A stretch of DNA of 64,000 nt from Arcobacteraceae bacterium. GTDB lineage: Bacteria; Campylobacterota; Campylobacteria; Campylobacterales; Arcobacteraceae. The notes under the pieces were generated by a model. The model was given only the letters and a program-made list of their open reading frames with translations, searched no databases and had not been told where the DNA came from. The stretch spans positions 1-64,000 of the forward strand of contig JAQUAG010000002.1 of the NCBI GenBank assembly GCA_028687375.1, in the 5' to 3' direction. This document shows, piece after piece, positions 43 through 37,595 of the stretch (its first letter is position 1; every line of letters begins with the position of its first letter). The translations under genes were made by a program, and so were the position numbers.

Positions 43-126
43 GCCCGTGTGGAGAAATGGTAAACTCAGTTGATTCAAAATCAACCGCTTCACGGCTTGG
101 CGGTTCGAGTCCGCCCACGGGTACCA
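43..126 (+). tRNA. tRNA-Leu (anticodon CAA)
   Basis: The acceptor stem GCCCGTG (43-49) pairs with CACGGGT near the 3' end with one G-U pair at the first position. The anticodon stem GTTGA/TCAAC encloses the loop TTCAAAA, which gives anticodon CAA. The T stem GGCGG/CCGCC encloses TTCGAGT, and the 3' CCA is encoded at 124-126. The long variable arm fits a leucine tRNA. Its 3' 61 bases (66-126) are repeated exactly at 37535-37595, so the gene is the integration site of the element to its right and stays intact after integration. Confidence 0.95.
66..126 (+). repeat. attL: 61-bp direct repeat in tRNA-Leu
   Basis: These 61 bases run from the D-arm side of the anticodon stem through CCA and are identical to 37535-37595 in the same orientation. 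Integration by tyrosine recombinases into tRNA 3' ends leaves exactly such a copy at the far end of the element. Confidence 0.93.
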
Positions 127-12338: not shown

Positions 12339-12342
12339 AAAT

Positions 12343-14565
12343 ATGAAAAAGTTAAGGATATATTTTTTTGTAATACTCTTTTTTAGCATAAGTTTGTATG
12401 CTAAAGAGAGTATTCATTTCGGGGTATTTGCATATCTTGGATATGAAAAAACGAAAGAAAAATATGCTCCACTTATCGAATACCTCAATACAAAACTAGA
12501 TAAAAAAGTGGTTCTTGAAGTCCTGACTCAACAAGAGATGGATAATAAAATAAAAAATAAAGAACTTGATATCGCCACTACAAATCCAACACACTTTTTG
12601 GTTGTACGACATAACACCCATTTAAGTGGAGCAATAGCAACACTTATCGAAAATGGAAACGGGATAGCTGTTAATTCACTTGGAGGGATAATTTTAGTAC
12701 GAAAAGATAGCCCTATCCATACATTAAAAGATATAAAAAATAAAAAGATTGCTACTCCAAGTTTAAAACATATGGGTGGTTTTAGAGCTCAAGTATATGA
12801 ATTTTATAAAAACAATCAAAATGTTTTAAAAGAAAATGAAATTGTCATCACACAGATACATCAAGAAGCGATAAAAAAGGTGGTTGCAAAAGAGGTGGAT
12901 GTTGCATTTGTTCGAGATGGCATTTTTGAAAAAATGTTAGTAAATAATATACTGAATCCTGATGATGTAAAAATCATCAATGAGCAAAAAGATTCAACTC
13001 ATCCTTTTAAAATATCTACAGCACTTTATCCTGAATGGCCAGTTTTTGCATTGCCTTATGCTGATAAAGAGGATGTCAAAAAAGTATTATCGGCTTTATT
13101 GGCATTTGATTCAAATTCAAGTTATGCTCAGAAATCTGGAATTTATGGTTATGATTTACCTGCTGATTATCTTGTAGTTGAGGAATTGGCTCGAGCTTTA
13201 AGACTACCACCATATGAATCTATAGGATTAATAAATCATGAAGATATTTGGAAACAACATAAAGAAGATTTAATTTTTGTTGTTTTTTTACTCGGTATGA
13301 TTGTTCTTTATGTTATCCGAACTAAAAAACAAAATATTTTTGTAGATTCTCTTCTCTCAAATATTGGTGATGGTGTGTATGGAATTGATAAGGATGGTAT
13401 TTGTATTTGGATAAATCAAAAAGCTCTTGATATGTTAGGATTTCGAAGAGATGAAGTTATTGGATTTCACCAACACTATAAGTTTCATCATCATACGATT
13501 GAGCACAAAGAGTATAAAGAGGAAGATTGCCCAATATACAAAACAGCAAAAGATAAACAAACAAGAAATTGTATGGAGTATTTTATTAGAAAAGATGGGA
13601 CTTTTTTCCCAGTGTCTCTTACTGTAGCTGCTGCAAATAATTATGGTGCAATTATTGTTTTTCGAGATATTACAGAAGCAAAAAACTATGAAACAAAACT
13701 TGAATATGAAGTGTCGCAAAAAACAGAAGAACTCCAACAACTTAATCTTAATCTTGAAAATAAAATCTTTGAAGCAATAGAGCAAAATAAAAAACAACAA
13801 GCTCTCCTTGAACAACAATCAAGACTTGCTGCTCTTGGGGAGATGATAGGGAATATTGCTCATCAGTGGAGACAACCACTATCAGTTATAACGACAGCAA
13901 TATCTGGAATGAAAGTTAAACAAGAATTTGGAATACCAATAACGGAAGAGTCGATGACAGAAGTAACAGACACAATCATAAATCATGCTAATTATCTCTC
14001 TAAAACAATAGATGATTTTAGAGATTTTATAAAAAATGATAATACTCAAGAGATTTTCAATCTTTCAAAAGTGATAAACGATACAGCAAATCTTTTAAAT
14101 GCCACATTAAATTCAAATCAGATTGAACTTATTTTAGAGCTTGATGATACGATTATGTGTGATGGATATCCAAGTCAATTTTCACAAGCACTTATGAATA
14201 TAGTTAATAATGCAAAAGATGCTTTTACAGAAAAAAATCAAGAGTATAAACAAATAATAATCATGACACTACAAGATGCTAACCTGATAAGAATTGAAGT
14301 TACCGATAATGCAGGTGGGATACCTGAAGAGCTTAAGTCAAAGATTTTTGACCCTTATTTTACGACAAAACATCAAAGTCAAGGGACAGGACTGGGACTT
14401 TATATCTGTGTCAATATCATTCAAAAATATTTTAATGGAAAAATATCTCTTGAAAATGTAGATGCAATTATAGAAGATAATTTTTATAAAGGGACAAAGT
14501 TTATAATAGAGTTTGAAGCAAATCAGGTAAATCATAAATCACATCTCTTTGATAATATCAAATAA
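12343..14565 (+). CDS. Histidine kinase with PhnD-like periplasmic binding domain
   Basis: A protein of 740 residues. Start at 12343 gives a clean signal peptide (MKKLRIYFFVILFFSISLYA); a frame opening at 12313 would lie in the remnant before it. Residues about 25-265 form a PhnD-type substrate-binding domain (IHFGVFAYLGYEKTKEKYAP, ELDIATTNPTHFL, VDVAFVRDG). A membrane segment at about 305-322, a PAS domain at about 330-450, a coiled coil, the H-box [16 protein letters not shown] and an HATPase domain (NIVNNAKDAF, DNAGGIPEE, FTTKHQSQGTGLGL) follow. The ligand is unknown; PhnD-like domains bind phosphonates, phosphite or other small molecules. No receiver is fused, so a separate regulator is needed. 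Confidence 0.88.
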   Translation: MKKLRIYFFVILFFSISLYAKESIHFGVFAYLGYEKTKEKYAPLIEYLNTKLDKKVVLEVLTQQEMDNKIKNKELDIATTNPTHFLVVRHNTHLSGAIATLIENGNGIAVNSLGGIILVRKDSPIHTLKDIKNKKIATPSLKHMGGFRAQVYEFYKNNQNVLKENEIVITQIHQEAIKKVVAKEVDVAFVRDGIFEKMLVNNILNPDDVKIINEQKDSTHPFKISTALYPEWPVFALPYADKEDVKKVLSALLAFDSNSSYAQKSGIYGYDLPADYLVVEELARALRLPPYESIGLINHEDIWKQHKEDLIFVVFLLGMIVLYVIRTKKQNIFVDSLLSNIGDGVYGIDKDGICIWINQKALDMLGFRRDEVIGFHQHYKFHHHTIEHKEYKEEDCPIYKTAKDKQTRNCMEYFIRKDGTFFPVSLTVAAANNYGAIIVFRDITEAKNYETKLEYEVSQKTEELQQLNLNLENKIFEAIEQNKKQQALLEQQSRLAALGEMIGNIAHQWRQPLSVITTAISGMKVKQEFGIPITEESMTEVTDTIINHANYLSKTIDDFRDFIKNDNTQEIFNLSKVINDTANLLNATLNSNQIELILELDDTIMCDGYPSQFSQALMNIVNNAKDAFTEKNQEYKQIIIMTLQDANLIRIEVTDNAGGIPEELKSKIFDPYFTTKHQSQGTGLGLYICVNIIQKYFNGKISLENVDAIIEDNFYKGTKFIIEFEANQVNHKSHLFDNIK

Positions 14566-18392: not shown

Positions 18393-18748
18393 ACAAAAGT
18401 TAAAAGCCTAACTAAACAATTGGCTTTATCAATCACTTGTATACTTTAAATTTCAATACTTTTGAGGGATAGCTTGATGGCTTGTTCATTTTGTTTGCTC
18501 TTTCAATACAATTTGATATTGGAGTAGATATAATCCTGTTAATATTAAATTATAATGGATAAATTAAACAAATGATAAAAAAAGAGATTACGGATAACAA
18601 TATATGAAACAAAAAATCACATTACAAAATTTACACCTAAATGTTTTTGGATTATCTCTTTAGTTTTAGATTACATTTTTATTACACTTTTTTTAAATAT
18701 AATCATTTCTCGTTTTAGTAAACAGTGGAAAGTTACGGAGTAAGAGAT
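18393..18748. other. Gene-free stretch leading to the signalling block
   Basis: A short stem AAAGCC/GGCTTT at about 18410-18428 may end the ATPase gene weakly. The region close to 18700 holds a promoter with a 16-bp direct-repeat box (18671-18686) and TATAAT at 18698-18703. A 19-residue frame at 18604 has no recognisable ribosome binding site and is not called. Confidence 0.5.
18671..18703 (+). promoter_or_regulatory. Activator-type promoter with TTACA direct repeats
   Basis: The box TTACATTTTTATTACA (18671-18686) contains two TTACA copies 11 bases apart. TATAAT follows at 18698-18703, 11 bases after the box, with no proper -35. The same 16 bases occur at 26865-26880 upstream of the PAS-PAS kinase, with the same distance to a -10-like TACTAT. 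Tandem half-sites at 11-bp spacing that replace the -35 are how PhoB/OmpR-type regulators activate. The regulator at 24241 is the obvious candidate, by inference. Confidence 0.6.
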
Positions 18749-19714
18749 ATGTATGAAAGTATAAACAACCTTATAGAAAGTATAGCTTGTAATAAAGAGA
18801 AAAAAGAGGATTTTAAAAAAGTAATTGAGCTTTTTAGTAATCTAAGGTTTTGTTACAATGTTGATGAGATGGCACATGTGATTTGTAACTGGGTCAAAAA
18901 AACTTTTCAAGTAAAAAACATCTACTTTAATCTTTATAATATCTCTAAAAATAACAATTGTATTTTAGTTACCAAAGGGAAAAAGTTTACCCTTGAAGAA
19001 GAAAATAGTTTTTATTTTATTATAGACACTAAAACAGATTTTAATGCCCTAGTTGCATTTCAAGCAGATGATACCAAAACAGCAACAGATATTAGAAACA
19101 ATCAAGGTTTATTAGATAGTGTTTCTTTGCTAATCTCCCCTATGGTTGAAAATACTATTATGAAAAAGCTTTATATTGACTCCGCTTCAATTGATAGTGT
19201 AACAAATGTTTATACAAGGGAGTATCTCTTAGAACATCTCAATAGTATTTTAAAACTCAAAGAGGATCAGCAAAATTCTATCACTTTTTTAATGATTGGT
19301 ATTGATAGATTTAAAGCAGTTATTGATGAATTTAATCATGATATTGGGAATGTAGTATTAAAAGAATTAGCTAAAGTGATCCACACAAATATCACTAACA
19401 ATGATATCGTAGCAAGAGTTATAGGGGATGAGTTTTTAGTTGCTTTACTAAACTCGTCTGAAAAGAAAACATTAAAAGTAGTAAGAAATATTATTAGAAT
19501 TTTTGGACATACACACATAACAGTCAATAATAAATCGGGTCAAACTCTTACTAAGTCTATTTGTGTCGGTATCTCTTCATATCCAGATGATTCAAATGAT
19601 ATTAATCAAGTTATTAAAAATGCAGACACAGCTCTTTATATTGCAAAAGAGAAACAAAGAGGTTCTTATGAGATTTATAAACAAGTAGAAGAAAGCTCAA
19701 TAGATCTGTTTTAA
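18749..19714 (+). CDS. Degenerate GGDEF-domain protein with GAF-like N-terminus
   Basis: A protein of 321 residues. The ATG at 18749 is preceded by CGGAG; a GTG in the same frame at 18725 is less well placed. Residues about 15-150 look like a GAF-type sensor. The rest is a GGDEF domain in fold (DSVTNVYTREYLLEHL, NHDIGNVVLKELAKVI, CVGISSYPDD, NADTALYIAKEKQRG). The active site is altered: GGDEF reads IGDEF, and the usual metal-binding DxDxFK reads GIDRFK. No RxxD inhibitory site is seen before it. It is therefore probably a receptor or scaffold rather than a working cyclic-di-GMP synthase. Confidence 0.8.
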   Translation: MYESINNLIESIACNKEKKEDFKKVIELFSNLRFCYNVDEMAHVICNWVKKTFQVKNIYFNLYNISKNNNCILVTKGKKFTLEEENSFYFIIDTKTDFNALVAFQADDTKTATDIRNNQGLLDSVSLLISPMVENTIMKKLYIDSASIDSVTNVYTREYLLEHLNSILKLKEDQQNSITFLMIGIDRFKAVIDEFNHDIGNVVLKELAKVIHTNITNNDIVARVIGDEFLVALLNSSEKKTLKVVRNIIRIFGHTHITVNNKSGQTLTKSICVGISSYPDDSNDINQVIKNADTALYIAKEKQRGSYEIYKQVEESSIDLF

Positions 19715-19734
19715 ACTAAAAAAAGGATAAAAAA

Positions 19735-22281
19735 ATGAATAAAATAAAAAATATTGAATATTATATTGTTAGCTTGGTAGCATTGTTATTTGCACTAGTT
19801 CTTTATGGGGAATATAACTTAAAAATTGATATGTATCATAAAGAAAAAATAGAAGATTTAAATAGTGAATATAATACACAATTAAAATTTACTAAAGTGC
19901 TTTCAGAAACACTATTTGGAGATGTATTAGAAAATGAAACTGTATTAAAAATAATTGACGATGCTAATAGAGATATTCATAAAGATATAAATAGAGAAAA
20001 ACTCTATCAACTATTTAAAGAGAAGTATAAAAGGATGGAAGAGAGGGGGATACTCCAATTTCACTTTCATCTAAAAAATGGAGAGAGTTTTTTAAGATTT
20101 CATAAACCTTCTCAATACGGAGACAACTTATTATTTAGAAAAAGTATAACAAAAGTGATTAGAACACAAAAGTTTGTTTATGGTTTTGAAGCTGGAAGAT
20201 ACTTTGAAGGGTTTCGATATGTATACCCTCTTTTTTTAAAAAATAAGTATGTGGGAAGTGTTGAATCCTCAATGAAGGTGCAAACAGTTGTAGGATATAT
20301 GAAAGAAAACCTTGAAGCAGATTATTCAATTATTTTAAATAAAAATATGATGGATAAAGTGGTTGACAAAAACTATATAAGTAAAAGCTTTCAAATATCT
20401 CCACTTGATAAAAACTATTACCAATATATTCAAGATAAAAAGGAAACAGATACAGCCATATTAGAAAAGATAAAAATGCAAGCTTTACAATATTTGAAAA
20501 GAGAGCACTCATTTGTTCTAAGTGTAAAAGATAAAAATGGTGATAGAAATGTTTTTACATTTGTTGCAATTCAAGATATTGACAACAATGAAGCTGGCTA
20601 TATCTATTCTCAAAAGATAGATAATAGTGTAAATGAAATTGTTTTTTTACAAATAGTTAAGTTTATAATAGCATTTGGTATCCTTTTAATACTATGGTAC
20701 TACTATAAAGTTTTTAAAGCTAAGAACAATACAATTGAGCAGTTAAAGGAGACAATTGATAAAACTACATTGGTATCTAAAACCGATTTAAGTGGAAGAA
20801 TAACGTATGTAAATCAAGCTTTTTGCGATATTTCAGGGTATACAGAAAATGAGCTTCTAGGAAAAACTCATAATATTATACGGGATCCTAAAGTATCAAA
20901 AGAGGTATTTAAAGAGATGTGGGGGACTATTAAAAACAAAAAAGTATGGCATGGCACTATCTCAAATAGAAAAAAAGATGGCTCAATTTATATTGTTGAT
21001 GCAACGATTATTCCATTACTTAATACAAATAATAATATTCAAGAGTATATCGCTATTAGACATGATATAACTGAGCTTGAAAGCTATAAAGAGATATTAA
21101 AAGAGCAACTAGATGACAAAAGTAAAACTTTAGAAGAAAATATCTATTATACAAAGCAATATGAAGGTGCCATGGATGACTCAGTAGCTATTTTAAAAAC
21201 AGATCATCAAAATATTATAAATTATGTTAACAAACAGTTTTGTGAACTTAGTGGATATTCAGCTATAGAGCTTATTGGGACAAGCTGTAGAAATTTTCGT
21301 GACAAAAGTCATCATGAAGCAGGTGATTGCGATAGACTTATAGAGCAGATGTCAAATAAAGAGATAATATCTATGGTATTTAAAAATATTGCTAAAAATG
21401 GTGAGCCATTTTATATGAAAACAAAAATATTTCCAATCTTGAATATAAATGGTGAAGTTTGTGAGCACCTCCATCTAATGAATGATATTAGTGAAATTGT
21501 TAATTTTAATCAAGAATTAACAATAAAGATAAATGAAGCTGTTGAAGAGAATAGTAAAAAAGAGCAGCAAATATTTGAGCAGGCAAAAATAATCTCATTG
21601 GGTGATATGATAGGAAATATTGCACATCAATGGAGACAACCATTAAGTGCTATTACTTCAACTGCATCGGCAATAAAGCTCCATAATGAACTTGGGATTT
21701 TAGATAATACAGAAATTGATGATAAAATGGAGATGATACTAAACAAGGCTACTTATTTATCAAACACTATAGATACATTTAGAAATTTTATTAAAGAAGA
21801 TAAAGAGCTTAAAGTAGTACTTATACAAAATATTATACAAGACGCTTTGAAAATAGTAGAAGCTTCACTTTATAATTATCATATTGATATTATTAAAAAT
21901 ATTGATGATTTAAATCCTATAAAGGTAAGAATTTTTAAGGGTGAACTTGAACAAGTGATTATTAATATTATAAATAATGCTAAAGATATTTTAGTAGAAA
22001 AAAAGATTGATCAAAAATGGATAAAAATCGATCTATTTTTGAAAGAAGAGAATGTTGTAGTAGTTACCATTGAAGATAATGGTGGAGGTATTCCTGAGGA
22101 TATAGGACAAAAAATATTTGAACCATATTTTACAACAAAACATCAGTCTCAAGGTACAGGTTTAGGGCTTCATATGAGTAAAAAAATTGTTAATGATAGT
22201 TTAAAGGGTAATTTATATGTTAAAAATACCAATGATGGTGCTAAGTTTTTTATTGAGTTACCTTTCAATAAGGTAGATTAA
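19735..22281 (+). CDS. Cache-PAS-PAS membrane histidine kinase
   Basis: A protein of 848 residues with AAAGGAT upstream, 20 bases after the GGDEF gene. A membrane segment at about 8-26 and one at about 302-322 enclose a periplasmic Cache-type domain. It holds FHFHLKNGESFLRFHKPSQY, FEAGRYFEGFRYVYPLF and VGSVESSM, and resembles the sensor of the chemoreceptor at 28580. PAS 1 (about 345-455) has the GKTHNIIRDPKV / WHGTISNRKKDG pattern, and PAS 2 (about 470-590) has ECGxxx-like CRNFRDKSH. The H-box is [16 protein letters not shown], followed by HATPase (NIINNAKDI, EDNGGGIPED, TKHQSQGTGLGL). No regulator is fused. Confidence 0.88.
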   Translation: MNKIKNIEYYIVSLVALLFALVLYGEYNLKIDMYHKEKIEDLNSEYNTQLKFTKVLSETLFGDVLENETVLKIIDDANRDIHKDINREKLYQLFKEKYKRMEERGILQFHFHLKNGESFLRFHKPSQYGDNLLFRKSITKVIRTQKFVYGFEAGRYFEGFRYVYPLFLKNKYVGSVESSMKVQTVVGYMKENLEADYSIILNKNMMDKVVDKNYISKSFQISPLDKNYYQYIQDKKETDTAILEKIKMQALQYLKREHSFVLSVKDKNGDRNVFTFVAIQDIDNNEAGYIYSQKIDNSVNEIVFLQIVKFIIAFGILLILWYYYKVFKAKNNTIEQLKETIDKTTLVSKTDLSGRITYVNQAFCDISGYTENELLGKTHNIIRDPKVSKEVFKEMWGTIKNKKVWHGTISNRKKDGSIYIVDATIIPLLNTNNNIQEYIAIRHDITELESYKEILKEQLDDKSKTLEENIYYTKQYEGAMDDSVAILKTDHQNIINYVNKQFCELSGYSAIELIGTSCRNFRDKSHHEAGDCDRLIEQMSNKEIISMVFKNIAKNGEPFYMKTKIFPILNINGEVCEHLHLMNDISEIVNFNQELTIKINEAVEENSKKEQQIFEQAKIISLGDMIGNIAHQWRQPLSAITSTASAIKLHNELGILDNTEIDDKMEMILNKATYLSNTIDTFRNFIKEDKELKVVLIQNIIQDALKIVEASLYNYHIDIIKNIDDLNPIKVRIFKGELEQVIINIINNAKDILVEKKIDQKWIKIDLFLKEENVVVVTIEDNGGGIPEDIGQKIFEPYFTTKHQSQGTGLGLHMSKKIVNDSLKGNLYVKNTNDGAKFFIELPFNKVD

Positions 22282-22337
22282 AATATGAAAAAAACAATCA
22301 GATTAAAAACAAAAACAAATAAAAAAGAGGTAGTGAT

Positions 22338-24239
22338 GTGAGTCAAATAAAAATATTAGTTGTCGATGATTCTAAAACTTATAATAATATTTTATTTTCA
22401 ATGTTCCAAGATCTTGGTTATGATACATTGCAAGCATACTGCTTGGAAGATGCAAAAAATATTTTAATTTCACACAAAATTGAGTATGTTTTATTAGATT
22501 TGCATCTTCCTGATGGTGATGGTGTTTGTGTCGTTGAGGAGATAAAAAGTTATTGTCCAACTATTAAAATTATGGTAATTACAGGGGATGAGAATACTCA
22601 AATAAGAGATAAGATATTTGAAAAAGGGATTATTGATTATTTTCTTAAAAAATCACCTGTTTCTGTTGTAGTAAATTGTGCAGATCTACTTATAAAAACT
22701 ATAGAATCTCATAAAAACATAAATATTTTAACAATTGATGATTCAACTTTTATCCGTAAATTGTTAAAAAATGTTCTTCAAGCAAAAGGATACAATGTTT
22801 TTGGAGCAACCAATGCTTTGGATGGTGAGAAAATAATTGAACAAAATGATATCCATTTAGTCTTACTGGATCTTATTATGCCTGGATTAAATGGTGTCGA
22901 GTTTTTAATAAAACTTAAAAAAGGGAAATACTCTAATATTCCTGTGATTGTTATTTCAGGTGATGAATCTAGGGAAAACTATACAAGAGTTTTAAAACAA
23001 GGAGCCAATGATTTTATTAGAAAGCCGTTTATTATAGAGGAGGTTCTTTTAAAGTGTGATATACATATTGATTCATATCTATATAAGAAAAGCTTTTTTG
23101 AGCGAGCACAAGAGTTAAAAAGACAAAATAACTATTATAAAAACTTAATCGAAGCAAATCTTGATCCTTTGGTTACTATTTCAAAAGAGGGTAAAATAAC
23201 AGATGTAAATAATGCGACTATTGAGATAACGGGATATAGCAAAAATAACTTAGTAGGTTCAAATTTCTCCTCATATTTTACAGACTCAATAGAAGCAAAG
23301 AAAGCTTATGAGAAAGTTTTAAGTGAAGGGAAAGTTATAGATTACCCTTTGAGTTTGAAACATAAAGAGGGTAAAGAGTTTGATATGTTATATAATGCTT
23401 CAGTATATAAAGATGAAAATGAAGAAATAGCTGGTGTATTTGCATCTGCTAAAAATGTAACTGAACTCAATACTTTAAGAGAAAAAGATGAAGAAAGCAA
23501 AAGACTACAAAGTAATTTAACTCTTTTGAGTAATATAGCACATCATTGGAGACAACCTCTTAGTGTGATATCAGCTTCAGCTTCAGGGATGCAGTTTAAA
23601 CATGAAATGGGAATTTTAGATGATACACAATTGAAACAATTCTGCGATAATATAAACGATAATGCACAGAAATTATCTAAAACTATTAATGAATTTGCAA
23701 ACTATTTAAATAGTAGTAGTAAGAGTTATTCTCTATCTGATGATTCAAGACAAAAAGATAAAAAAGACTTTATAGAATTTGTTCATTCTACCCTTGAAAA
23801 CACCAATATCAAAATTGTATTGCACTTTAATGATGATAAAATAAAAAATTATCCTAATAAATTAGTAGATTGTTTTGAAAGTATATTGCTAAATGCAAAA
23901 GATGCCTTAATGGATCTTTTAGAAGATGAGAGATATTTGGTTATTACACAAAATTTTATAGATAACAATATTGTAGTAAGCTTCAAAGATAATGGAGGTG
24001 GAATACCACAAGAAAACCTATCAAAAGTTTTTGAACCATATTTCACAACTAAACATCAATCTTATGGTACAGGTCTTGGTCTTAGTTTGGTTTACAATTT
24101 AATTGTCAATACATTTAAAGGGACAGTAGAGATTAAAAATATCGATATTGAATATAATAAAAAACAATATAAAGGTACAGAAGTTACAATTGTATTGCCT
24201 TTTAAATTTTTTTTCGTAAGTAATTTAGATAAGGCTTAA
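22338..24239 (+). CDS. REC-REC-PAS hybrid histidine kinase
   Basis: A protein of 633 residues starting with GTG after AGAGG. The first receiver has DDSK, LLDLHLPDGDG, VITGDE and LKKSP; the second has IDDST, LLDLIMPGLNG, VISGDE and IRKPF. Both keep the phosphoacceptor Asp. A PAS domain (about 270-375) and a kinase core follow: the H-box reads LSNIAHHWRQPLSVIS, with DNGGGIPQEN and TKHQSYGTGLGL in the ATPase. It is soluble, so it could take phosphate from the membrane kinase upstream and relay or integrate it. An 18-residue frame (22285-22341) overlaps its start and may be a leader. Confidence 0.87.
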   Translation: MSQIKILVVDDSKTYNNILFSMFQDLGYDTLQAYCLEDAKNILISHKIEYVLLDLHLPDGDGVCVVEEIKSYCPTIKIMVITGDENTQIRDKIFEKGIIDYFLKKSPVSVVVNCADLLIKTIESHKNINILTIDDSTFIRKLLKNVLQAKGYNVFGATNALDGEKIIEQNDIHLVLLDLIMPGLNGVEFLIKLKKGKYSNIPVIVISGDESRENYTRVLKQGANDFIRKPFIIEEVLLKCDIHIDSYLYKKSFFERAQELKRQNNYYKNLIEANLDPLVTISKEGKITDVNNATIEITGYSKNNLVGSNFSSYFTDSIEAKKAYEKVLSEGKVIDYPLSLKHKEGKEFDMLYNASVYKDENEEIAGVFASAKNVTELNTLREKDEESKRLQSNLTLLSNIAHHWRQPLSVISASASGMQFKHEMGILDDTQLKQFCDNINDNAQKLSKTINEFANYLNSSSKSYSLSDDSRQKDKKDFIEFVHSTLENTNIKIVLHFNDDKIKNYPNKLVDCFESILLNAKDALMDLLEDERYLVITQNFIDNNIVVSFKDNGGGIPQENLSKVFEPYFTTKHQSYGTGLGLSLVYNLIVNTFKGTVEIKNIDIEYNKKQYKGTEVTIVLPFKFFFVSNLDKA

Positions 24240-24240
24240 A

Positions 24241-24945
24241 ATGATAAAAACAGATTTAAAACAGATGCTATCCTCACTAACTATTGTTTATATAGAGGAT
24301 GATGATAATATTAGAGAAAACTTTTGTGAGTTTTTTGAGCGGTTTCATGCAAATATATTTTGTACATCTAATGCTGAAGATGGATTAGAGTTATATAAAA
24401 CGAAAAAGCCTGATATTATGGTTGTAGATATAAATCTTCCAAATATGAGTGGTATAGAGTTGGTATCTCAACTTCGTCAAGAAGACAAATTAACAAGGTT
24501 TATAATCACTACGGCATATACAAATCCAGAATTTACTTTGCAAGCAATTGAACTAGATATCACTAGATATATTGTAAAACCAATAACAAGCAATACTCTT
24601 CTTCCCGCTTTAGAAAAATCGTTACAAGAGCTTCAAAAAACTACCGATATCTATACAGATATACATCTAGCGGAAGGTTTCGTATTTAATTTAAAAAAAG
24701 AGCAACTATTTTGCAATGGTGTTGCAATAAGCTTACGAAAAAAAGAGCTTTTACTTTTGAAGCTTTTGTTACAAAATAAAGATGCAGTAGTAAGTTATGA
24801 GATGATAGAAAGAAAGTTGTGGGATGAACTACATATGACAGATAATGCTATTCGAGGACAAGTGCGAAACCTAAGAAGAAAAACCCATCAAAATATTATA
24901 AAAAATATTAGTGGTATTGGGTATAAAATTAATTGTAAAGAGTAA
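24241..24945 (+). CDS. OmpR-type response regulator
   Basis: A protein of 234 residues, one base after the hybrid kinase stop. The receiver has IEDDDNIREN, VVDINLPNMSGIEL with the phosphoacceptor Asp, TTAYTN and VKPITS. The C-terminal winged helix (about 140-234) has LRKKELLLLKLLLQNKDAVVSYEMIE and the DNA-recognition segment NAIRGQVRNLRRKT, then ISGIGYKIN. It is the only DNA-binding regulator in the element's signalling block. So it is the best candidate for binding the TTACA direct-repeat boxes at 18671 and 26865. Confidence 0.9.
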   Translation: MIKTDLKQMLSSLTIVYIEDDDNIRENFCEFFERFHANIFCTSNAEDGLELYKTKKPDIMVVDINLPNMSGIELVSQLRQEDKLTRFIITTAYTNPEFTLQAIELDITRYIVKPITSNTLLPALEKSLQELQKTTDIYTDIHLAEGFVFNLKKEQLFCNGVAISLRKKELLLLKLLLQNKDAVVSYEMIERKLWDELHMTDNAIRGQVRNLRRKTHQNIIKNISGIGYKINCKE

Positions 24946-24948
24946 ACT

Positions 24949-25137
24949 ATGAAGATTTTAAAAGAGTTAAAAACAGATAAAAAGATGACAATAGATTCTC
25001 AGGCTTCTATAAAAGAAGCTATGGGTGTGATGTATAAAAATAAAAATGGTTGTGTTGTTTTAATTGAAAAAAATAAACCAAAAGGGATAATTACTGAGAG
25101 TGATATAGTTAATGGACTTAAAAAAATGTTTTATTAA
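24949..25137 (+). pseudogene. N-terminal part of a CBS-PAS kinase, cut by a frameshift
   Basis: A frame of 62 residues, starting 3 bases after the regulator. It encodes the first half of a CBS domain: MTIDSQASIKEAMGVMYKNK, then CVVLIEKNKPKGIITESDIV. It stops soon after an A7 run at 25120-25126 that lies in frame as AAA AAA A. A shift of minus one at this run joins it to the frame of the next entry as LKKNVLLTHDALKIAKMG, which restores a full CBS pair. It is not an independent protein by design. Whether the shift is programmed, phase-variable, a real mutation or an error cannot be decided here. Confidence 0.7.
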
Positions 25138-25163
25138 CACATGATGCTTTAAAAATAGCAAAG

Positions 25164-26822
25164 ATGGGCTTATTAACTGCAGATGAAAATAGACCAATTG
25201 AGTATGCCTTTGATATGTTGGGGCAATATAATATAAGAAGAATAATTTTAGTTGATAAAGATAAAAATTTTTCAGGAGTTGTTTTACAAGAGGATCTTTT
25301 TGACTATTTAGAGGAAGATGTTTATAAGGTTGATTTGAAAATCGAGAATATTATTAATAAATCCCTAAAACTACAAACTGTGTGTATTGATGATTCAATA
25401 AAAAAAGTGATTGAGTTGATGCAAAAGTTTAAGATAGGTTCATTGGTCGTTCTACACAATAATAAGTGTGTTGGTATAGTAACTGAAAAAGATATTCTAA
25501 AGGTGCAGTTTAATGAGGTAAACTTAGAAGAGAAAGTCTCATTACATATGAGTTCCCCTGTTATTAGTTTAAAAGAGAGTATTTTTGTTACTGATGCGAT
25601 TGAGGTGATGAAAGTTAAACATATCCGAAGAATTGTTATTACTAATGAAGATGATGTACCTATATCGATTTTAACAAATAGAGATATTTTAAAACATGTT
25701 AAAGGGAACTATACAAGAACCTTACAAAATAAAATCAAACACGCTCAAGAGATTATGAATTTTTTACCTGAACCAATTATTGAGGTTTATTACACACATA
25801 ATGAAGATATGATCCATTGGGTGAATACTCAAGCACAAAATGTATTTGGTGAAAATATTATAGATAGTAAAATTACAGATATTATTAAAAAAGAGGATTG
25901 GGATTATATAAAAGATTTTTTAAAAGATCAAAAAATATTAAAGGATCTAAACATTCAAGTCAAAGAAAAAGTATTTGAACTATCTGGATCACTAATGAAC
26001 AGTTCAGGGAATAACTATATAAAACTTTTGTTTAAAGATGTGACAGATTATGAATTAGAAAAAGTAAAATTACAACAAATAATTGAAGATGAAATAGCAA
26101 AACGGATAGATAGTGAATACTTAATGATGCAGCAATCAAAGCTTGCTACTATGGGTGAGATGATTGGACATATTGCACACCAATGGAGGCAACCACTAAA
26201 TCAACTAGGCGGAATATTTTTAAACCTTGAAACAGCTTCCTCCTTTGGTGAATTAGATCAAAAATATCTACAACAAAAACTAAATAGTTGTAATGAGATT
26301 ATAACTCATATGTCAAATACAATTGAGGATTTTCGATATTTTTTTAGACCAACAAAAGAAAAAGAGCTTTTTGATATTTGTAAATATATCAATAATGCTA
26401 TTAATCTTATTAAGGCATCGTTAACATACAGTAAAATCAAAGTTAAATTTCAAGAGAGTGATAACAAGTTTTTCATCCAAGGCTACCCTAGTGAGTTTGC
26501 ACAAGTAGTTTTAAATATACTCTCAAATGCCAATGATGTATTAGTGCTGAATAAAATAAAAGATCCATATATAGAGATAGTGATAAGGGAAAACAATAAA
26601 AAAGTTTTTATAGATATCAAAGACAATGGGGGAGGTATAGATAATGAGATTATCGATGAGATTTTTAATATATACTTCTCTACAAAAACAAAAGAGGAAG
26701 GGACAGGGATTGGTTTATATATGTCTAGATTGATTATTGAAACCAAATTTGGCGGGAAACTCTATGCTACAAATTCAAAAGATGGAGCTGTTTTTACAAT
26801 TGAGTTTACAAAAACAAAATGA
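25164..26822 (+). CDS. CBS-PAS histidine kinase (main part)
   Basis: The frame is open from 25122; the first ATG is 25164, giving 552 residues. The original gene very probably began at 24949. The domains seen are the rest of the first CBS pair (IEYAFDMLGQYNIRRIILVD), a second CBS pair (DDSIKKVIELMQKFKIGSLV, ESIFVTDAIEVMKVKHIRRI), a PAS-like segment (about 200-300), the H-box [18 protein letters not shown] and HATPase (NILSNANDVL, DNGGGIDNEI, TKTKEEGTGIGLYMS). CBS pairs bind adenine nucleotides, so the intact kinase may sense energy charge or a second messenger. No membrane segment is seen. Confidence 0.82.
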   Translation: MGLLTADENRPIEYAFDMLGQYNIRRIILVDKDKNFSGVVLQEDLFDYLEEDVYKVDLKIENIINKSLKLQTVCIDDSIKKVIELMQKFKIGSLVVLHNNKCVGIVTEKDILKVQFNEVNLEEKVSLHMSSPVISLKESIFVTDAIEVMKVKHIRRIVITNEDDVPISILTNRDILKHVKGNYTRTLQNKIKHAQEIMNFLPEPIIEVYYTHNEDMIHWVNTQAQNVFGENIIDSKITDIIKKEDWDYIKDFLKDQKILKDLNIQVKEKVFELSGSLMNSSGNNYIKLLFKDVTDYELEKVKLQQIIEDEIAKRIDSEYLMMQQSKLATMGEMIGHIAHQWRQPLNQLGGIFLNLETASSFGELDQKYLQQKLNSCNEIITHMSNTIEDFRYFFRPTKEKELFDICKYINNAINLIKASLTYSKIKVKFQESDNKFFIQGYPSEFAQVVLNILSNANDVLVLNKIKDPYIEIVIRENNKKVFIDIKDNGGGIDNEIIDEIFNIYFSTKTKEEGTGIGLYMSRLIIETKFGGKLYATNSKDGAVFTIEFTKTK

Positions 26823-26864
26823 TATCTAGTTTTATTTATAGTTGAAGTATAAGATTAAGAACCA

Positions 26865-26897
26865 TTACATTTTTATTACATTTTTTTTCGATACTAT
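26865..26897 (+). promoter_or_regulatory. Second TTACA direct-repeat promoter
   Basis: TTACATTTTTATTACA at 26865-26880 is identical to 18671-18686. A -10-like TACTAT lies at 26892-26897, again 11 bases after the box. It should start a transcript for the regulator stub at 26915 and the PAS-PAS kinase and chemoreceptor genes. This links both halves of the signalling block to one regulator; the regulator itself is inferred. Confidence 0.58.
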
Positions 26898-27046: not shown

Positions 27047-28558
27047 ATGAAAACAGCTCAAAAAATTTTAGATAATTATAAAAAGACTATTCGAAGTGAT
27101 TTCATTTTAGATGGGATACTTATAGTTTTTATTTGGCACAATGAAGCTACTTGGTCTGTTGAAACAGTTTCTAAAAATATTGAAAAATATCTAGGATATG
27201 AAGATGAATTATTTTTGAATAATATACTTTCTTATTCAAGTTTGATCCATCCTGATGATTTAAATAGGGTTATTGAAGAGGTGAGTGATGCTTCAAGTAG
27301 AAAGTTAATGTCTTTTAATCATGAGCCATATCGAGTTCTTACTAAAAGTAATAATTATATTTGGGTAAAAGACTCTACAACTATCATTTATGATGAAAAT
27401 AACAATATTACACATTTTATTGGGAATGTTATTTCAATAAATGATGAAATTGAGAAAAACCTACAATATCAAAAAAGATTGGAAGAGCAAACAGCAGAAC
27501 TTCAAACAATATTTGATACCACAAAAGATGGTATAGCTATAACTGATTTGGAATCTAATTTTCAAAAAGTCAATAAAGCTTACACAAAAATCACAGGTTT
27601 AAGTGATGAGGAACTCTTAAAAACTTCTTGCTTTAACCTTACCCATCCAGATGATGTTACTAGTACTATAGACAAAATGGTACTCTTATTTAAAGAAGGT
27701 CATGTTGATAACTATGAAAAAAGATGCCTTATCAATGGGAAAACAATAGTTGTTAGCATCTCTGCTACCATATTGCCTGATGGTAATCGTATGCTTATCA
27801 GTATGAAAGATATTACAAGATTAAAAACATTTGAAGAACATGCGAAACTAGCTTCTATGGGTGAGATGATAGGAAATATTGCACATCAATGGAGACAACC
27901 CCTTAGTGTTATAACAACAATGGCTAGTGGAATCCAATTAAAAAAAGAACTTGGTATGTTAAATGAAAATACCCTTGATGAGAGTATGGATACTATTGCA
28001 GAACAAGCAAACTATCTCTCTCATACTATTGATGATTTTAGAAATTTTATACGAAATTCAGATGAAGAGATGCCACTCGATATCAAAACAACTCTTTTAA
28101 AAACACTTTCATTAGTCTCAGCTGTTTTAAAAAATCATGATATAACAGTGATACAAAATATAGAGGATACCATTACAATTATTGGGCACGAGAATGAACT
28201 TATACAGGCATTTATCAATATTATAAATAATGCAAGAGATGCTGTAGAGGAAAATATTTCAAATAAAGATGATAAATTTATTTTTATAACTACAAAAGCT
28301 ACAGATAATGGAGTTATTATAGAGATAAAAGATAATGGTGGAGGGATTCCACAAAATATTATAAATAAAATATTTGAACCATATTTTACTACAAAACATC
28401 AAAGTATAGGGACAGGGATAGGTCTTTCAATGACTTATAAGATACTTACTGAACATCATAATGGGAAAATTGAAGTTCATAATGAAGAGTATCAATATAA
28501 TGGAAAAAACTATAAAGGTGCTTGTTTTACAATGATGTTTAGAAATAATGTAAGTTAA
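27047..28558 (+). CDS. PAS-PAS soluble histidine kinase
   Basis: A protein of 503 residues with AAGGAG before the start. PAS 1 (about 15-135) has TWSVETVSKNIEKYLGYEDE and IHPDDLNRV, ending in a PAC-like segment; PAS 2 (about 150-265) has TIFDTTKDGIAITDLES and THPDDVT. The kinase has the H-box [20 protein letters not shown] and HATPase motifs NIINNARDAV, DNGGGIPQNI and TKHQSIGTGIGLSM. No membrane segments are present, so it senses a cytoplasmic or redox-type signal. It is followed 21 bases later by a chemoreceptor, under the TTACA-box promoter. Confidence 0.88.
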   Translation: MKTAQKILDNYKKTIRSDFILDGILIVFIWHNEATWSVETVSKNIEKYLGYEDELFLNNILSYSSLIHPDDLNRVIEEVSDASSRKLMSFNHEPYRVLTKSNNYIWVKDSTTIIYDENNNITHFIGNVISINDEIEKNLQYQKRLEEQTAELQTIFDTTKDGIAITDLESNFQKVNKAYTKITGLSDEELLKTSCFNLTHPDDVTSTIDKMVLLFKEGHVDNYEKRCLINGKTIVVSISATILPDGNRMLISMKDITRLKTFEEHAKLASMGEMIGNIAHQWRQPLSVITTMASGIQLKKELGMLNENTLDESMDTIAEQANYLSHTIDDFRNFIRNSDEEMPLDIKTTLLKTLSLVSAVLKNHDITVIQNIEDTITIIGHENELIQAFINIINNARDAVEENISNKDDKFIFITTKATDNGVIIEIKDNGGGIPQNIINKIFEPYFTTKHQSIGTGIGLSMTYKILTEHHNGKIEVHNEEYQYNGKNYKGACFTMMFRNNVS

Positions 28559-28579: not shown

Positions 28580-31120
28580 ATGAAAAAAAGTTCAATTTTA
28601 AATAAATTTACTGTGATTGCAGTAATGGTGTCTGTTGTGACGATAATTTTGAGTTATATTGGATTGAGTATATATAAATCAACTATTACAGATAGTGTGT
28701 ATGAGAGCACCAAAAATGATTTATTGTCTGCATTACATAATAGTTTAGCTGCAAAAAAAGATGTAGGGATAACCAATGCATACTCTATTGCAAATGATGG
28801 AATGATAAAATCAGCATTAAGTGAAAATAGACGAGAGTTAGCAATTGCTAGCTTACAAAATATTAATAAAACTTTCAAAGAAAATACAGAGTTTAAAAAT
28901 ATAAAAGTACACATCCATACAAAAGATAATAAATCATTTCTTAGAAACTGGAAACCAGAAAAATTTGGGGATGATTTAAGTAATTTTAGAGCAAGTGTTG
29001 TGGCAGTAAATAGTAATTTGAAACCTATAAATGAATTTGAAGTAGGTAATGATGGATTAGGCTTAAGATCAGTAGTTCCAGTATTTGATGGAGCTACCCA
29101 TGTAGGTTCTTTAGAATTTATGCAAGGGATGAATTCTGTTGCTAAAGATTTTGATAAAAATAAAGATGGCTTTTTACTTTTAATGGATCTTGATAAAAAA
29201 ACTGAAGATGTAGCTTCAGATTTAATATTTAGGGAAAAATATGTTATTTCTCAAAAATTTATTAATAAAGAATTTTTAGCGGATGTTTCAAAAATAGATT
29301 TAGAACAATTATTAACTAACAAGATGCTGTTTAATGAAAATTATTTATATACATATGATGAGATAAAAGATTTTCAGGGGAATAAAATAGGTATTGCAAT
29401 TGTAGCAAGACCACATGATATCGTAAATGAATCTTTAGATAAAACATCAAACCTTATCTATTTTGCTATTTTAGGACTGGTACTAGCAATTGTAATTAAT
29501 CTTATTGCATCTTTAATAAATATGAAAAAAACTGTTCTTGCCCCTATTGCTTCTTTAAAAAAATCGATTGATACAGTTAAAGATTCAAAAGTAACAGATA
29601 CTATTGAAGTTTTAAGTGATGATGAAATAGGCGAGGTTGTAAAGAGTTTTAATGAATATTTACATTCAATAACAGAAGGTGTAAAAATTGATCAAATTGC
29701 TATTGATGAAGTGAAAGGTGTTATTACAAGGGCAAAAAGAGGGATGTTAAATTCTCAAGTTAAAGCGAAAGGAAATTCTCAAGCTGTAAATGAATTAATA
29801 GGTGCAGTAAATGAATTGACTAATGATGTACAAAAAAACCTTACTATCCTTTCTGATGTAATGATAGCTTATGGAAACTCTAAATTTGATCATAAAGTTC
29901 CTAAACTTGAAGGTGTTACTGGGATTATAGCTTCATTATTTGTGGGTATTGAAGCAACAGGAAATACAGCTTCTGAACTCTTAGCATTGATGAGCCAATC
30001 AAACAAAAAACTTCTGGAAAGTTCAGAACAACTTGCACACTCTTCAGGACAACTAAGTCAAGCATCAAATTCACAAGCAGCAAGTTTAGAACAAACCGCA
30101 GCTGCTATTGAAGAGGTAACAAGTACAATAGCAAATACAGCAAATACTACTGTAGCTATGAGTAATCTTGCAAAAGATGTAACTGTGTCAGCTACAAAAG
30201 GGAATGATTTAGCAAATAAAACTGCCGATGCGATGGAAGAGATTGCACATGAAGTGACAGCTATTAATGAATCAATTAAGCTTATTGAACAAATTGCATT
30301 TCAAACAAACATCTTATCTTTAAATGCAGCAGTTGAAGCTGCAACGGCAGGGGAAGCTGGAAAAGGGTTTGCAGTTGTTGCACAAGAGGTACGAAACTTA
30401 GCAAATAGAAGTAGTGATGCTGCAAATGAGATAAAAGCTTTAGTAGAATCAGCAAAAGCTAAAACAATAGAGGGGAAAGAGATTTCAGAAAGTATGATAT
30501 CAGGTTATGCAAAATTACTTAATGATATCAACAGTACAATTGATTTAATAAGTGATGTATCAACAGCAAGTAAAGAACAACAAGAGGCAATGACACAAGT
30601 AAATGATGCAATCTCTCTACTAGATCAAACTACACAAAGAAATGCACAAGAAGCATCAGCTATTAATGATATGGCGAAACTCAATCAAACTTTAGCAAAT
30701 AATTTACAACAAGCGATTAATAGAACTTCATTTGATAAAAATAGTGAAAAAAGAGTTTGTGACGTAGATTTGATATTTGATATGGCACGAATGAAACTCA
30801 ATCATGTAACATTTAAAAATGATGCTTTTAGTAAAGCAGGAGCTGGTACGAAATTTACTGTTACAAATCATCACAGTTGTGCATTAGGGAAGTGGATAGA
30901 TGAACAAGAACAACATGGGGGAAAAATAACTCAAAGCAAAGCTTGGGAGGAGTTAAAACAATATCATCAAAATGTTCATATGATGACTCAAGATGTTGTA
31001 GATCTTCAAACAAGAGGATATGATAATGGACAATTGTTTGCAGTATCTGATAATATAGAATTAAATATTGCAGAAGTAGTTCAAAGACTCAATACAATTC
31101 GTGAAGAAAATTGCAAATAA
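28580..31120 (+). CDS. Chemoreceptor with Cache sensor and CZB domain
   Basis: A protein of 846 residues with GGGAAAGAG before the start. A membrane segment (about 9-31), a Cache-type periplasmic domain ([37 protein letters not shown]), a second segment (about 293-315) and HAMP come first. The signalling domain carries the highly conserved hairpin tip ([36 protein letters not shown]). The C-terminus is a chemoreceptor zinc-binding domain with [22 protein letters not shown] and a later YHQNVH. So the receptor could sense zinc or hypochlorous acid from inside as well as a ligand outside. It must rely on chromosomal Che proteins. Confidence 0.92.
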
Positions 31121-31130: not shown

Positions 31131-31508
31131 ATGGCTTTAAATCAAGAAACAATTTTAAGTGATGATGCTTTTTTAGTAAGTGAAACTGATGCAAAAGGGA
31201 TGATACGATTTGCAAATAAAGAATTTTGTAACATTGCAGAATATTCTCTTGAAGAATTGATGGGTAAGAATCATAATATTGTTAGACATAAAGATATGCC
31301 AAAGGCTGCATTTAAAGATCTTTGGGATACTGTAAAAAGTGGAAAAGTTTGGCAGGGATATGTAAAGAATGGCACAAAAAGTGGTGGATTTTATTGGGTA
31401 TTTGCTACTAAAAATGAGAAAAATGAACAATGTTATCTTTCATGTAGAAGAAAACCATCAAGAGAAGATGTTTTAAAATATGGTGATTTATATAAAACGA
31501 TGCAATAA
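31131..31508 (+). CDS. Lone PAS-domain protein of Aer/CetB type
   Basis: A protein of 125 residues that is a single PAS domain, 10 bases after the chemoreceptor, with AAGGAT upstream. It has GMIRFANKEFCNIAEYSLEE, GKNHNIVRHKDMPKAAFKDL and KVWQGYVKN, which is the pattern of FAD-binding PAS domains in Aer and in the CetB half of the split Campylobacter energy-taxis receptor. It likely acts with the receptor before it as a two-protein redox sensor. The cofactor and the partnership are inferences; the PAS fold is clear. Confidence 0.8.
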   Translation: MALNQETILSDDAFLVSETDAKGMIRFANKEFCNIAEYSLEELMGKNHNIVRHKDMPKAAFKDLWDTVKSGKVWQGYVKNGTKSGGFYWVFATKNEKNEQCYLSCRRKPSREDVLKYGDLYKTMQ

Positions 31509-31574: not shown

Positions 31575-33410
31575 TTGACCAAAGATAACTTTCACAAATT
31601 TTTTACCATTTATTTTATTGGTTTTGGTATTATCATCTCTTTATTTGGGGCTTTTACAAGTTATATATTTGAAATGAATAATATTCAAAATAGATTAGAT
31701 AAAAAAGCAATAGAAATTTTTGATATCAAAACAAACACGATTTTAAAACCAGTTATTGAAAGCATAGATAATGTAGTGAAGGCTTTAACTTTTAATGACA
31801 CTGTTGTAGAGTTTACTAAAACAAACGATATCCATAAGCGAAATGAATTAGAACAATTATTTTTAGCTATCGCAACATCTCAAAATAAAATTATGCAAGT
31901 ACGACTACTTTCAAAAAATGGTGATGAAGTTATTAGAATTGATAGACAAAATGAAACAACAAAACCTTATATTGTTGCAACTAAAAACTTACAAAATAAG
32001 AGTGAAAGAGACTATTTTCAAATTGTATCAAATATGACTAAGCAAACCATTTGGCATTCAAAATTAGATTTAAATGTTGAAAATGGAAAGGTTGAGATTC
32101 CCTATAAACATACCATACGAGCTGCTATGCCACTCTTTTTAAATGGTAAATTTGCTGGTATGGTTATAGTCAATATTCTGACTAATGATTTATTTAAAGC
32201 GATTGGAACATCTTCCGTATTTGAACATTTTATAATCGATAAAGAGAAAAACTATATCTTCCATCCTAATAATCAGTTTTCAGGTAATAAATACACAGGT
32301 ATAAAAAGAGATATAAAAGAAGATTTCCCTGATGGACTTAATGTAAATGGCATATATACTTATCCGATAGACGATATTTTAAATAATGATGATGATGCTA
32401 TTTTGGTTTTAAAAACAAAAGAAAATTATGAAAATTTATTGATTGATGAGAAGCTAAATAGTGCAATTTTTGTTTTAATGCTAACTGTCATTCTTAGTCT
32501 ATTATTAGCAATCTATATATCTAAAAAACCAAGAAAAATTCAAAGAGCACTAGTAAAAGCAAATGAAAAACTAAATAAATTTAGTTCAATCATAGATAAG
32601 TATGTTATCACAGCAACTACAAAACCTGACAGTACAATCATAAGTGTAAGTACTGCATTTGAACAATTATCAGGATATGAAAAAAGTGAACTTATAGGAA
32701 GCAAGATGAATATATTAACTAATCCCCTTCAAGATAAATCACTTTTTAAAGAATTATGGGAAACTATTTTATCTGGTAAAATTTGGATGGGAGAGATTAT
32801 AAATAAAAAGAAGAATGGCGAATCATATTGGGTAGATCAACATATTATTCCAACAATCAATGATAAAAATGAAATAGAATCTTTTGTTAGTATATGCATC
32901 GATATTACAGCAAAAAAAGAGTTAGAAAAAATAGCATCTATTGATGTATTGACTGGATTATACAATAGAAGAATGATAAATGAATTTGTAAAAAATGAAC
33001 TTGAAACTGTAAAAAGAAATTCAAATGGATTATCTATCATAATGATAGATATTGATTATTTCAAGCAGGTAAATGATACTTTTGGACATCAAGTAGGGGA
33101 TATTGTTTTATCCCAGCTCTCCAAACTCATTTTAGAAAACACAAGAAAATCTGACATCCAAGGAAGATATGGTGGTGAGGAGTTTATCATTATTTGTCCA
33201 CAAACGACAAATGAAGCTGCATGTATTTTGGCTGAAAAGTTAAGAAGTGCTGTTGAAAACTTTGCATTTGATGTTGCTGGTCATAAAACAATAAGTTTAG
33301 GAGTATCATCATTTAACAAAAATGATAATGTCGAATCAATGATAAAAAGAGCTGATGATGGACTATATCAAGCTAAAAATAGCGGAAGAAATCGGTTCAT
33401 TTCACTATAA
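31575..33410 (+). CDS. Cache-PAS diguanylate cyclase
   Basis: A protein of 611 residues that starts with TTG after ATAAGGA. A membrane segment (about 10-33) and one at about 295-316 enclose a Cache sensor (QVRLLSKNGDEVIRIDRQN, IRAAMPLFLNGKFAGMVIVN). A PAS domain (about 335-450) and a GGDEF domain (about 455-611) follow. The active site is intact: MIDIDYFKQVNDTFGHQVGD and RYGGEEF at about residue 533. The inhibitory RxxD site (RKSD) lies exactly five residues before GGEEF. It should make cyclic-di-GMP and be feedback-inhibited. It stands after the receptor pair but has its own spacing of 66 bases. Confidence 0.9.
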   Translation: MTKDNFHKFFTIYFIGFGIIISLFGAFTSYIFEMNNIQNRLDKKAIEIFDIKTNTILKPVIESIDNVVKALTFNDTVVEFTKTNDIHKRNELEQLFLAIATSQNKIMQVRLLSKNGDEVIRIDRQNETTKPYIVATKNLQNKSERDYFQIVSNMTKQTIWHSKLDLNVENGKVEIPYKHTIRAAMPLFLNGKFAGMVIVNILTNDLFKAIGTSSVFEHFIIDKEKNYIFHPNNQFSGNKYTGIKRDIKEDFPDGLNVNGIYTYPIDDILNNDDDAILVLKTKENYENLLIDEKLNSAIFVLMLTVILSLLLAIYISKKPRKIQRALVKANEKLNKFSSIIDKYVITATTKPDSTIISVSTAFEQLSGYEKSELIGSKMNILTNPLQDKSLFKELWETILSGKIWMGEIINKKKNGESYWVDQHIIPTINDKNEIESFVSICIDITAKKELEKIASIDVLTGLYNRRMINEFVKNELETVKRNSNGLSIIMIDIDYFKQVNDTFGHQVGDIVLSQLSKLILENTRKSDIQGRYGGEEFIIICPQTTNEAACILAEKLRSAVENFAFDVAGHKTISLGVSSFNKNDNVESMIKRADDGLYQAKNSGRNRFISL

Positions 33411-36271: not shown

Positions 36272-37366
36272 TTATCTAGTTATTTCATCAATAACATTAA
36301 TTACAGCTTGTGTTGCTGTTGTATGATTAGGTGTAATATAGTGTTTAGTTGCAGTTGCAATATTCAAATGACCTAATGAAGCTGCCATAATAGTTGGGCT
36401 AATGTCAGGTCTCGTAGCAAGTAAAGAAGCTAATATGTGCCTTGTAGTATGTAGAGTTAAATATTTAATACCACTTTTCTCTTTCAATTTTTCTACTTGA
36501 GCACGGACATCTTTCATCATTCCACCACTAATAGGCGATGTAAATACATAATCACCTACATTTTTAAATTCTTCTAATGCTTCTTTAATTATTGTTGGTA
36601 GAACATAAATCTGTTCACGACCAACTTTATTTGATTCTCTTTGAATTGTATAAAGATTTCTAGACAAATCTATATCTGTCCATTTAAGCGATCGAACTTC
36701 TCCCCATCTTCTTCCATAGAGACAAAATAAAAATAAACCCTTATAAAATGGGTTATCCTGATAAAGTTCTATAATTGCTTGGAAGAGGGCGATAAAATCT
36801 TTTTCAGGGTTATTAATAGGTTTTGGCTTATTGTTTACTGGAGAAATTTCTATCTTTGGGACTTTTTCTATAATATCATTATCAAGAGCATATTCCATAA
36901 CTGGTTTTAGAATGTTTTTTAAAATGACCTGTATTGTTCGTGGGCTACAGCCATTTTTATTCTGCAATGATTTACCTGATGTTTGAAGAGTTGCTTTAAA
37001 TTGGTCAATATCAACTCGCTTAATTGCGATTATTTTTTTCTCACCAAGAGTAGGGGATATATGAGCATTATAAATCAATTGCATTTTTTTAGTCCACTCA
37101 CTTTGAGGACGTTGCAAAAAATACATATCAGCTATTTGATTAAGGGTAGATCTTTCTCCTATATGAATTGAGGAATTTTCTTTTTTCTCTTTTAACTCTA
37201 TAAGGAATTGTTTTGCTTTTGCGATTCTAGTTCTTTTATCCCAAGATTTATGAGAAAAATCTAAAGTATGTTGACATCTTTTTTTATGAACTCTGAAGTC
37301 CAATCTAAATTTCATATAGTCAGATGTTGCTTTTATATTTTGTTCAATTGTAATTGTAAAATCCAT
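36272..37366 (-). CDS. Tyrosine integrase
   Basis: A protein of 364 residues. The N-terminal domain has a SAM-like core-binding part (LNQIADMYFLQRPQSEW). The catalytic domain has the first Arg in LFCLYGRRWGEVRSLKW, the HxxR motif in LTLHTTRHILASLLA, LGHLNIATATKHYI with the second His and the Tyr nucleophile. Only 168 bases separate its start from the att copy at 37535, and three GTCTCC boxes lie in that gap. It should catalyse insertion into the tRNA-Leu gene and, with a directionality factor, excision. It lies at the end away from the intact tRNA. Confidence 0.94.
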   Translation of the reverse strand: MDFTITIEQNIKATSDYMKFRLDFRVHKKRCQHTLDFSHKSWDKRTRIAKAKQFLIELKEKKENSSIHIGERSTLNQIADMYFLQRPQSEWTKKMQLIYNAHISPTLGEKKIIAIKRVDIDQFKATLQTSGKSLQNKNGCSPRTIQVILKNILKPVMEYALDNDIIEKVPKIEISPVNNKPKPINNPEKDFIALFQAIIELYQDNPFYKGLFLFCLYGRRWGEVRSLKWTDIDLSRNLYTIQRESNKVGREQIYVLPTIIKEALEEFKNVGDYVFTSPISGGMMKDVRAQVEKLKEKSGIKYLTLHTTRHILASLLATRPDISPTIMAASLGHLNIATATKHYITPNHTTATQAVINVIDEITR

Positions 37367-37534: not shown

Positions 37535-37595
37535 TCAGTTGATTCAAAATCAACCGCTTCACGGCTTGGCGGTTCGAGTCCGCCCACGGGTACCA
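37535..37595 (+). repeat. attR: 61-bp copy of the tRNA-Leu 3' part
   Basis: All 61 bases are identical to 66-126. No acceptor-stem 5' half or D arm precedes it (the sequence before is unrelated), so it is a partial tRNA and not a gene. It marks the right border of the element. Confidence 0.93.

Follow-up and report, generated by a model that had tools for sequence, protein, structure and literature searches.

This locus raises the question of which protein acts on two promoters that share a 16-bp box, and whether the mobile element carrying them has a regulon of its own. The window, by which we mean the whole 64,000-nt stretch of an Arcobacteraceae genome analysed here, contains two exact copies of the 16-mer TTACATTTTTATTACA (18671-18686 and 26865-26880), each consisting of two TTACA half-sites spaced 11 bp from start to start. 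An earlier note on this DNA had placed each copy 11 bases ahead of a -10-like hexamer, with the half-sites 11 bases apart, and both the positions and the distances proved exact to the base (Table 1). The PhoB/OmpR-type geometry that it proposed is also borne out, since both sites have two direct half-sites 11 bp apart at a fixed 11-nt distance from the -10. The same spacing is found at the aligned sites of relatives and puts the box in the -35 region. Promoter 1 lies approximately 45 nt upstream of the likely ATG of the first gene behind it, and promoter 2 approximately 150 nt upstream of ATG 27047. Compared with the promoter pattern of the relatives, box 1 has one mismatch and box 2 has none. 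Since the two sites are alike over only about 30 nt, with no similarity in their flanks, a recently duplicated promoter region does not account for them.

We propose that the OmpR-type response regulator encoded between the boxes (regulator 24241, named after the first position of its gene) binds both of them, activates the sigma70 promoters and drives its own operon together with a second one, in a regulon confined to the element. From the sequence evidence set out below, we put the probability of this reading at approximately 0.82.

Table 1. Features of the integrative element, its two boxed promoters and the genes behind them (positions in the window)
Feature	Position	Strand	Basis
Element left end, 3' part of tRNA-Leu(CAA)	66..126	+	61-nt exact direct repeat
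Box 1, TTACA-N6-TTACA	18671..18686	+	Exact match; 5' of operon 1
-10 hexamer TATAAT, promoter 1	18698..18703	+	Sequence; 11 nt past box 1
Operon 1: GGDEF diguanylate cyclase	18749..19714	+	Pfam PF00990; sequence
Operon 1: dCache-PAS-PAS histidine kinase	19735..22281	+	Pfam
Operon 1: REC-REC-PAS histidine kinase (hybrid)	22338..24239	+	Pfam
Operon 1: OmpR/PhoB-type response regulator	24241..24945	+	PF00072 and PF00486; ortholog clade, helix MTDNAIRGQVRNLRRK
Operon 1: CBS-domain histidine kinase, putative partner of the regulator	24949..26822	+	Pfam; full-length orthologs; one frameshift
Box 2, TTACA-N6-TTACA	26865..26880	+	Exact match; 5' of operon 2
-10 hexamer TACTAT, promoter 2	26892..26897	+	Sequence; 11 nt past box 2
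Operon 2: PAS-PAS histidine kinase	27047..28558	+	Pfam
Operon 2: dCache chemoreceptor (MCP) with CZB domain	28580..31120	+	Pfam
Operon 2: single PAS protein	31131..31508	+	Pfam
Operon 2: sensor-PAS-GGDEF diguanylate cyclase	31575..33410	+	Pfam
Tyrosine integrase, right end of element	36272..37366	-	Pfam PF00589
Element right end, second 61-nt tRNA-Leu 3' repeat	37535..37595	+	100% identity direct repeat

The region carrying both boxes is a tRNA-Leu integrative element of 37.5 kb (66-37595). Its left end lies inside a tRNA-Leu(CAA) gene (43-126), and the element has an integrase gene together with direct repeats of the tRNA 3' end at both edges; the Rfam search returned tRNA only. Phage- or plasmid-like genes (D5_N/DUF5906, DUF932, Gp157 and Rad52) are found at 3446-10038. 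The signalling cargo is arranged in two tight gene runs, one behind each box, which are presumably co-transcribed as operons 1 and 2; no intrinsic terminator above chance was found at the ends of the two runs. For the GGDEF gene that opens operon 1 the likely start is ATG 18749, which has GGAG ahead of it, and the open reading frame list begins at GTG 18725. The regulator between the boxes had been taken to be the one OmpR-type regulator of the element, and it is indeed the only intact one found there. Pieces of a decayed second histidine kinase (matching 28261-28440 at 74%) and of a regulator C-terminus (matching 24876-24918 at 74%) are present at 34088-34614 as remnants of a duplicated kinase-regulator pair. 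The element also encodes, without a box, a fusion of a histidine kinase with a phosphonate-type periplasmic binding domain (12313-14565), and an MqsA-type antitoxin gene, accompanied by a small ORF as its partner (35340-36037), lies beside its integrase end.

Regulator 24241 has a receiver domain (PF00072, 8.8e-24) and a winged-helix Trans_reg_C domain (PF00486, 2.7e-13). In the mechanism that we propose, it would receive its phosphoryl group from a kinase, most likely the CBS-domain kinase whose gene follows directly, and would then bind head to tail to the two half-sites 11 bp apart; direct 11-bp repeats bound in this manner are standard in the OmpR/PhoB family (PMC4415409, PMC3798270). Since the boxes sit in the place of the -35 element, 11 nt upstream of the -10, the regulator is most likely a class II activator of sigma70 polymerase, like PhoB and Sulfurospirillum PceP. 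Promoter 1 would serve the operon in which the regulator and the CBS kinase are encoded, creating positive feedback, and promoter 2 would serve the second operon with its kinase, chemoreceptor, PAS protein and diguanylate cyclase, the regulon of both being limited to the tRNA-Leu integrative element.

The CBS-HATPase kinase gene directly downstream of the regulator is frameshifted in this assembly. Its first frame covers 24949-25137 and the remainder is in another frame from ATG 25164 to 26822; comparison of the reading frames with those of relatives places the shift between approximately 25125 and 25164. This is either a true mutation or an assembly error, and which of the two it is decides whether the switch still receives the signal of its own kinase. 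With the gene as assembled, regulator 24241 may lack phosphorylation or depend on a different kinase.

It is also conceivable, if unlikely, that regulator 24241 is a repressor of both promoters, the bound dimer covering the -35 region. The boxes overlap this region, and the polymerase could be blocked by a protein bound there. However, a consensus scan gave no -35 hexamer for either -10 among the matches listed, and a helper is therefore expected. Furthermore, the sites of PceP, which belongs to the same phylum, also overlap the -35, and activation was argued by the authors (PMC7755780). The shared arrangement argues for activation by regulator 24241 and for positive feedback on operon 1.

PceP (RR2), from the organohalide-respiration region of Sulfurospirillum, is likewise an OmpR-family regulator that controls the promoters of its own region, its own included, and in its sites repeats of 5 nt separated by 6 nt, hence of 11-bp period, overlie the -35 region ahead of a -10 of the form TANNAT (PMC7755780). 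It differs in its half-site, CTATW, and in that the central repeat is assigned to the -35, leaving the outer two repeats, at a distance of 17 bp, to the regulator. It also regulates dehalogenase genes, and its region has no reported CBS kinase and is not described as a tRNA-integrated element (PMC7755780). The window boxes further resemble the Pho box, in which 11-nt direct repeat units are bound head to tail by a dimer of the OmpR/PhoB family (PMC4415409), and the ArcA box of E. coli, where direct repeats 11 bp centre to centre are often joined by a third (PMC3798270), just as both window promoters show a degenerate third TT at +22. ArcA, however, has a box of different sequence, a redox signal and a global regulon of many operons (PMC3798270). 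PhoB differs in its recognition helix, its phosphate signal and its chromosomal global regulon. The Pho box is located in the -35 region, like the window boxes, but its half-site is TGTCA, unlike TTACA.

Instead of regulator 24241, another OmpR-type regulator of the host might bind the boxes, in which case the operons of the element would be plugged into a chromosomal circuit. This genome has many OmpR-type regulators, and in its 2.54 Mb TTACA-N6-TTACA occurs 36 times, against 9 in the reversed control, in many cases directly upstream of genes and in one case upstream of another OmpR-type gene. The TTACA half-sites alone are therefore not special. They look like a general currency of OmpR-type regulators in this genome rather than the mark of one regulator, and TTACA-N6-TTACA alone was rejected as a regulon marker. 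The exact 16-mer occurs three times, against approximately 0.05 expected from a composition estimate, and the third copy lies upstream of a histidine kinase gene (contig C27, position 4122). The full promoter, however, is found at no chromosomal site. Its pattern, TTNCA-N6-TTACATTT-N2-TTT-N3-TANNAT, was drawn up mainly from the sites of relatives, and with up to two mismatches it matched only the two window sites in the 2.54-Mb genome (two matches in the reversed control). The idea that the box with its -10 would be particular to these promoters thus stands for the full promoter but not for the bare 16-mer with its three copies. The QxRN helix of the regulator (see below) is found in none of the other checked regulators, and the chromosomal autoregulated case has its -10 at 9 nt, not 11. 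Control by a host regulator is therefore quite unlikely, and the uniqueness of the promoter and of the helix favours the suggestion of the earlier note that the island has a regulon of its own, under regulator 24241. Elsewhere in this genome, up to four TTACAAAGAAA-like tandem units with an 11-bp period are present upstream of genes (contig C31, 82318-82355 and 87552; loci L018-L021), probably representing the operator of another OmpR-type regulator.

The assignment of the box to regulator 24241 can be examined in relatives. A search with the CBS kinase gave full-length orthologs (43-53% identity) in 12 further genomes; genome G040 and two metagenome-assembled genomes (loci L034 and L035) bring the comparison to 15 loci. 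At 12 of these, in several genera, the regulator-CBS kinase pair or its argB/arginine kinase neighbours have the same promoter string next to them, with best-site leave-one-locus-out scores of 17 to 32. The exceptions are G295, with the box upstream of argB-arginine kinase on another contig (L173), G160, whose contig stops next to the kinase gene, and L034, where no box was found within 11.5 kb of the ortholog. Among 16 aligned sites of relatives, T1 T2, C4 A5, T13, C15 A16 T17 T18 T19, T23, T28 A29 and T33 are near-invariant and the six-base spacer is variable, which is the trace that would be expected of a protein contacting two half-sites. Since the best relatives of the regulator are only 40-49% identical, conservation of a short DNA box is informative, and the pairing of regulator 24241 with the box, which orthologs keep beside them in other genera, appears well supported. 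A conserved cytidylyltransferase operon likewise has the box in front of it in both G038 and G040, and in G038 this operon lies on a different contig from the regulator.

The regulators of the box loci form one clade (support 94/93, 12 rows, midpoint root only) apart from 22 paralogs. Their helix reads A[IV]RxQ[IV]RN[IL]R, with S for A in one member, and the recognition helix Q-[IV]-R-N-[IL]-R is present in 12/12 clade members and 0/22 paralogs. It was found in none of the other alignable OmpR-type regulators of this genome (24 rows, including a few repeats). The Q and N positions probably correspond to residues of PhoB that contact bases in the PhoB-DNA structure. The viral contigs searched contained no relative of regulator 24241, and plasmids and phages gave only distant regulators (at most 35% identity).

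Across 349 genomes the pattern with 11-nt spacing gave seven exact matches, against none in the reversed control, and with a spacing of 10 it gave no match. Four of the seven come from the 13 genomes in which a full-length CBS-kinase ortholog was found (Fisher p 4e-5). This value is to some extent circular, since the pattern had been defined with the help of the window and two relatives, all of them among the four. A profile search of 24 genomes produced many partial matches, so that full-length matches alone were considered. In the profile search of this genome with the sites of relatives only, box 2 ranked first and box 1 fourth.

These results also bear on the view that the shared box is not an operator but a core-promoter feature of AT-rich Campylobacterota, in which T-rich upstream elements are usual. 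RraA-like (RNase E inhibitor) genes of genus g6 and of G024 (L099-L102 and L107) have a conserved TTACA-type promoter; no full-length CBS-kinase ortholog is present in these genomes, and the RraA promoters of genus g6 score as high as some real sites. However, this genome has only two promoters of the full type, their conservation follows the regulator clade, and the spacing is exact with the spacer letters variable, so that this view is very improbable. Close to tctC genes, a clade of paralogous regulators (L221-L227, L234 and L115) has a conserved box of its own, TTTTA-N6-TTACATTTTTTT, whose distance from the -10 is the same. This box has the second half-site in common with the window boxes and differs in the first, both window boxes being of the TTNCA form. 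As the tctC-clade box and the RraA promoters show, specificity for the clade of regulator 24241 does not reside in the second half-site.

A matrix built from the sites of relatives alone scored box 1 at 26.4 and box 2 at 30.6, with the next window site at 14.4; once four later sites of relatives had been added, its scores stayed below 24 on either strand of 5 Mb of simulated sequence. That the two promoters resemble each other by chance, or as copies from a recent duplication that has no function, is hardly credible, since, although the window is AT-rich and holds the 16-mer at up to three mismatches 10 times against 8.1 in shuffles, no simulated site reaches 24, the flanks of the two sites are unrelated and the box is kept in relatives before different genes.

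With regulator 24241 as the probable activator at the box, its targets can be compared with those of its relatives. In most relatives the box is upstream of argB and an arginine (phosphagen) kinase gene (PF00217), and box-headed operons of this type were seen at six loci (L147, L148, L154, L155, L156 and L173) in several Campylobacterota genera. This position is usual in the clade but not universal, being absent both in the window genome and in G040, which has the closest regulator. In G040 the box stands before a CheY/CheX/GGDEF-EAL operon with the regulator among its genes, and before a gene whose start resembles a receiver domain; its targets in the window genome are signalling genes as well. 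Since no arginine kinase was found in either of these two genomes and the box there precedes signalling genes, the window regulon looks like a rewired or alternative branch. The arginine kinase genes of G004 and G012, in which no CBS-kinase ortholog was seen, have no box in front of them; G004 is from the genus of the window and was outside the kinase search, and the best relative of regulator 24241 there is 39% identical.

Adenine nucleotides are common ligands of CBS domains, and arginine kinase acts as a buffer of ATP; an energy signal for the CBS kinase-regulator system is therefore plausible. Tentatively, and with the odds somewhat against it, the CBS kinase and the OmpR-type regulator may ancestrally switch on argB and arginine kinase upon an energy change, the mobile element having rewired a copy to private c-di-GMP/chemotaxis genes. 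The bacterial arginine kinase itself has been described, for example from Sulfurovum (PMC6429109 and references therein), and no regulator of it was found described in the literature searched. It is the relatives of the window regulator that adjoin argB and arginine kinase, behind a copy of the box, whereas the window genome lacks the enzyme.

The kind of system is known, but as far as could be found the regulator family, the box, the arginine-kinase link and the element-confined regulon are undescribed. A DNA box and likely targets can now be assigned to an uncharacterised two-component family from sequence evidence alone, which also provides a testable candidate regulator for bacterial arginine kinase. 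The signalling cargo of the mobile element appears to be controlled by its own transcription factor and, since the full promoter occurs nowhere else in the host genome, may travel between hosts as a self-controlled unit. In G160 a strong box (contig C120, locus L183, position 59) lies upstream of an apparent fumarate reductase frdCA operon, which is a possible further energy-metabolism target.
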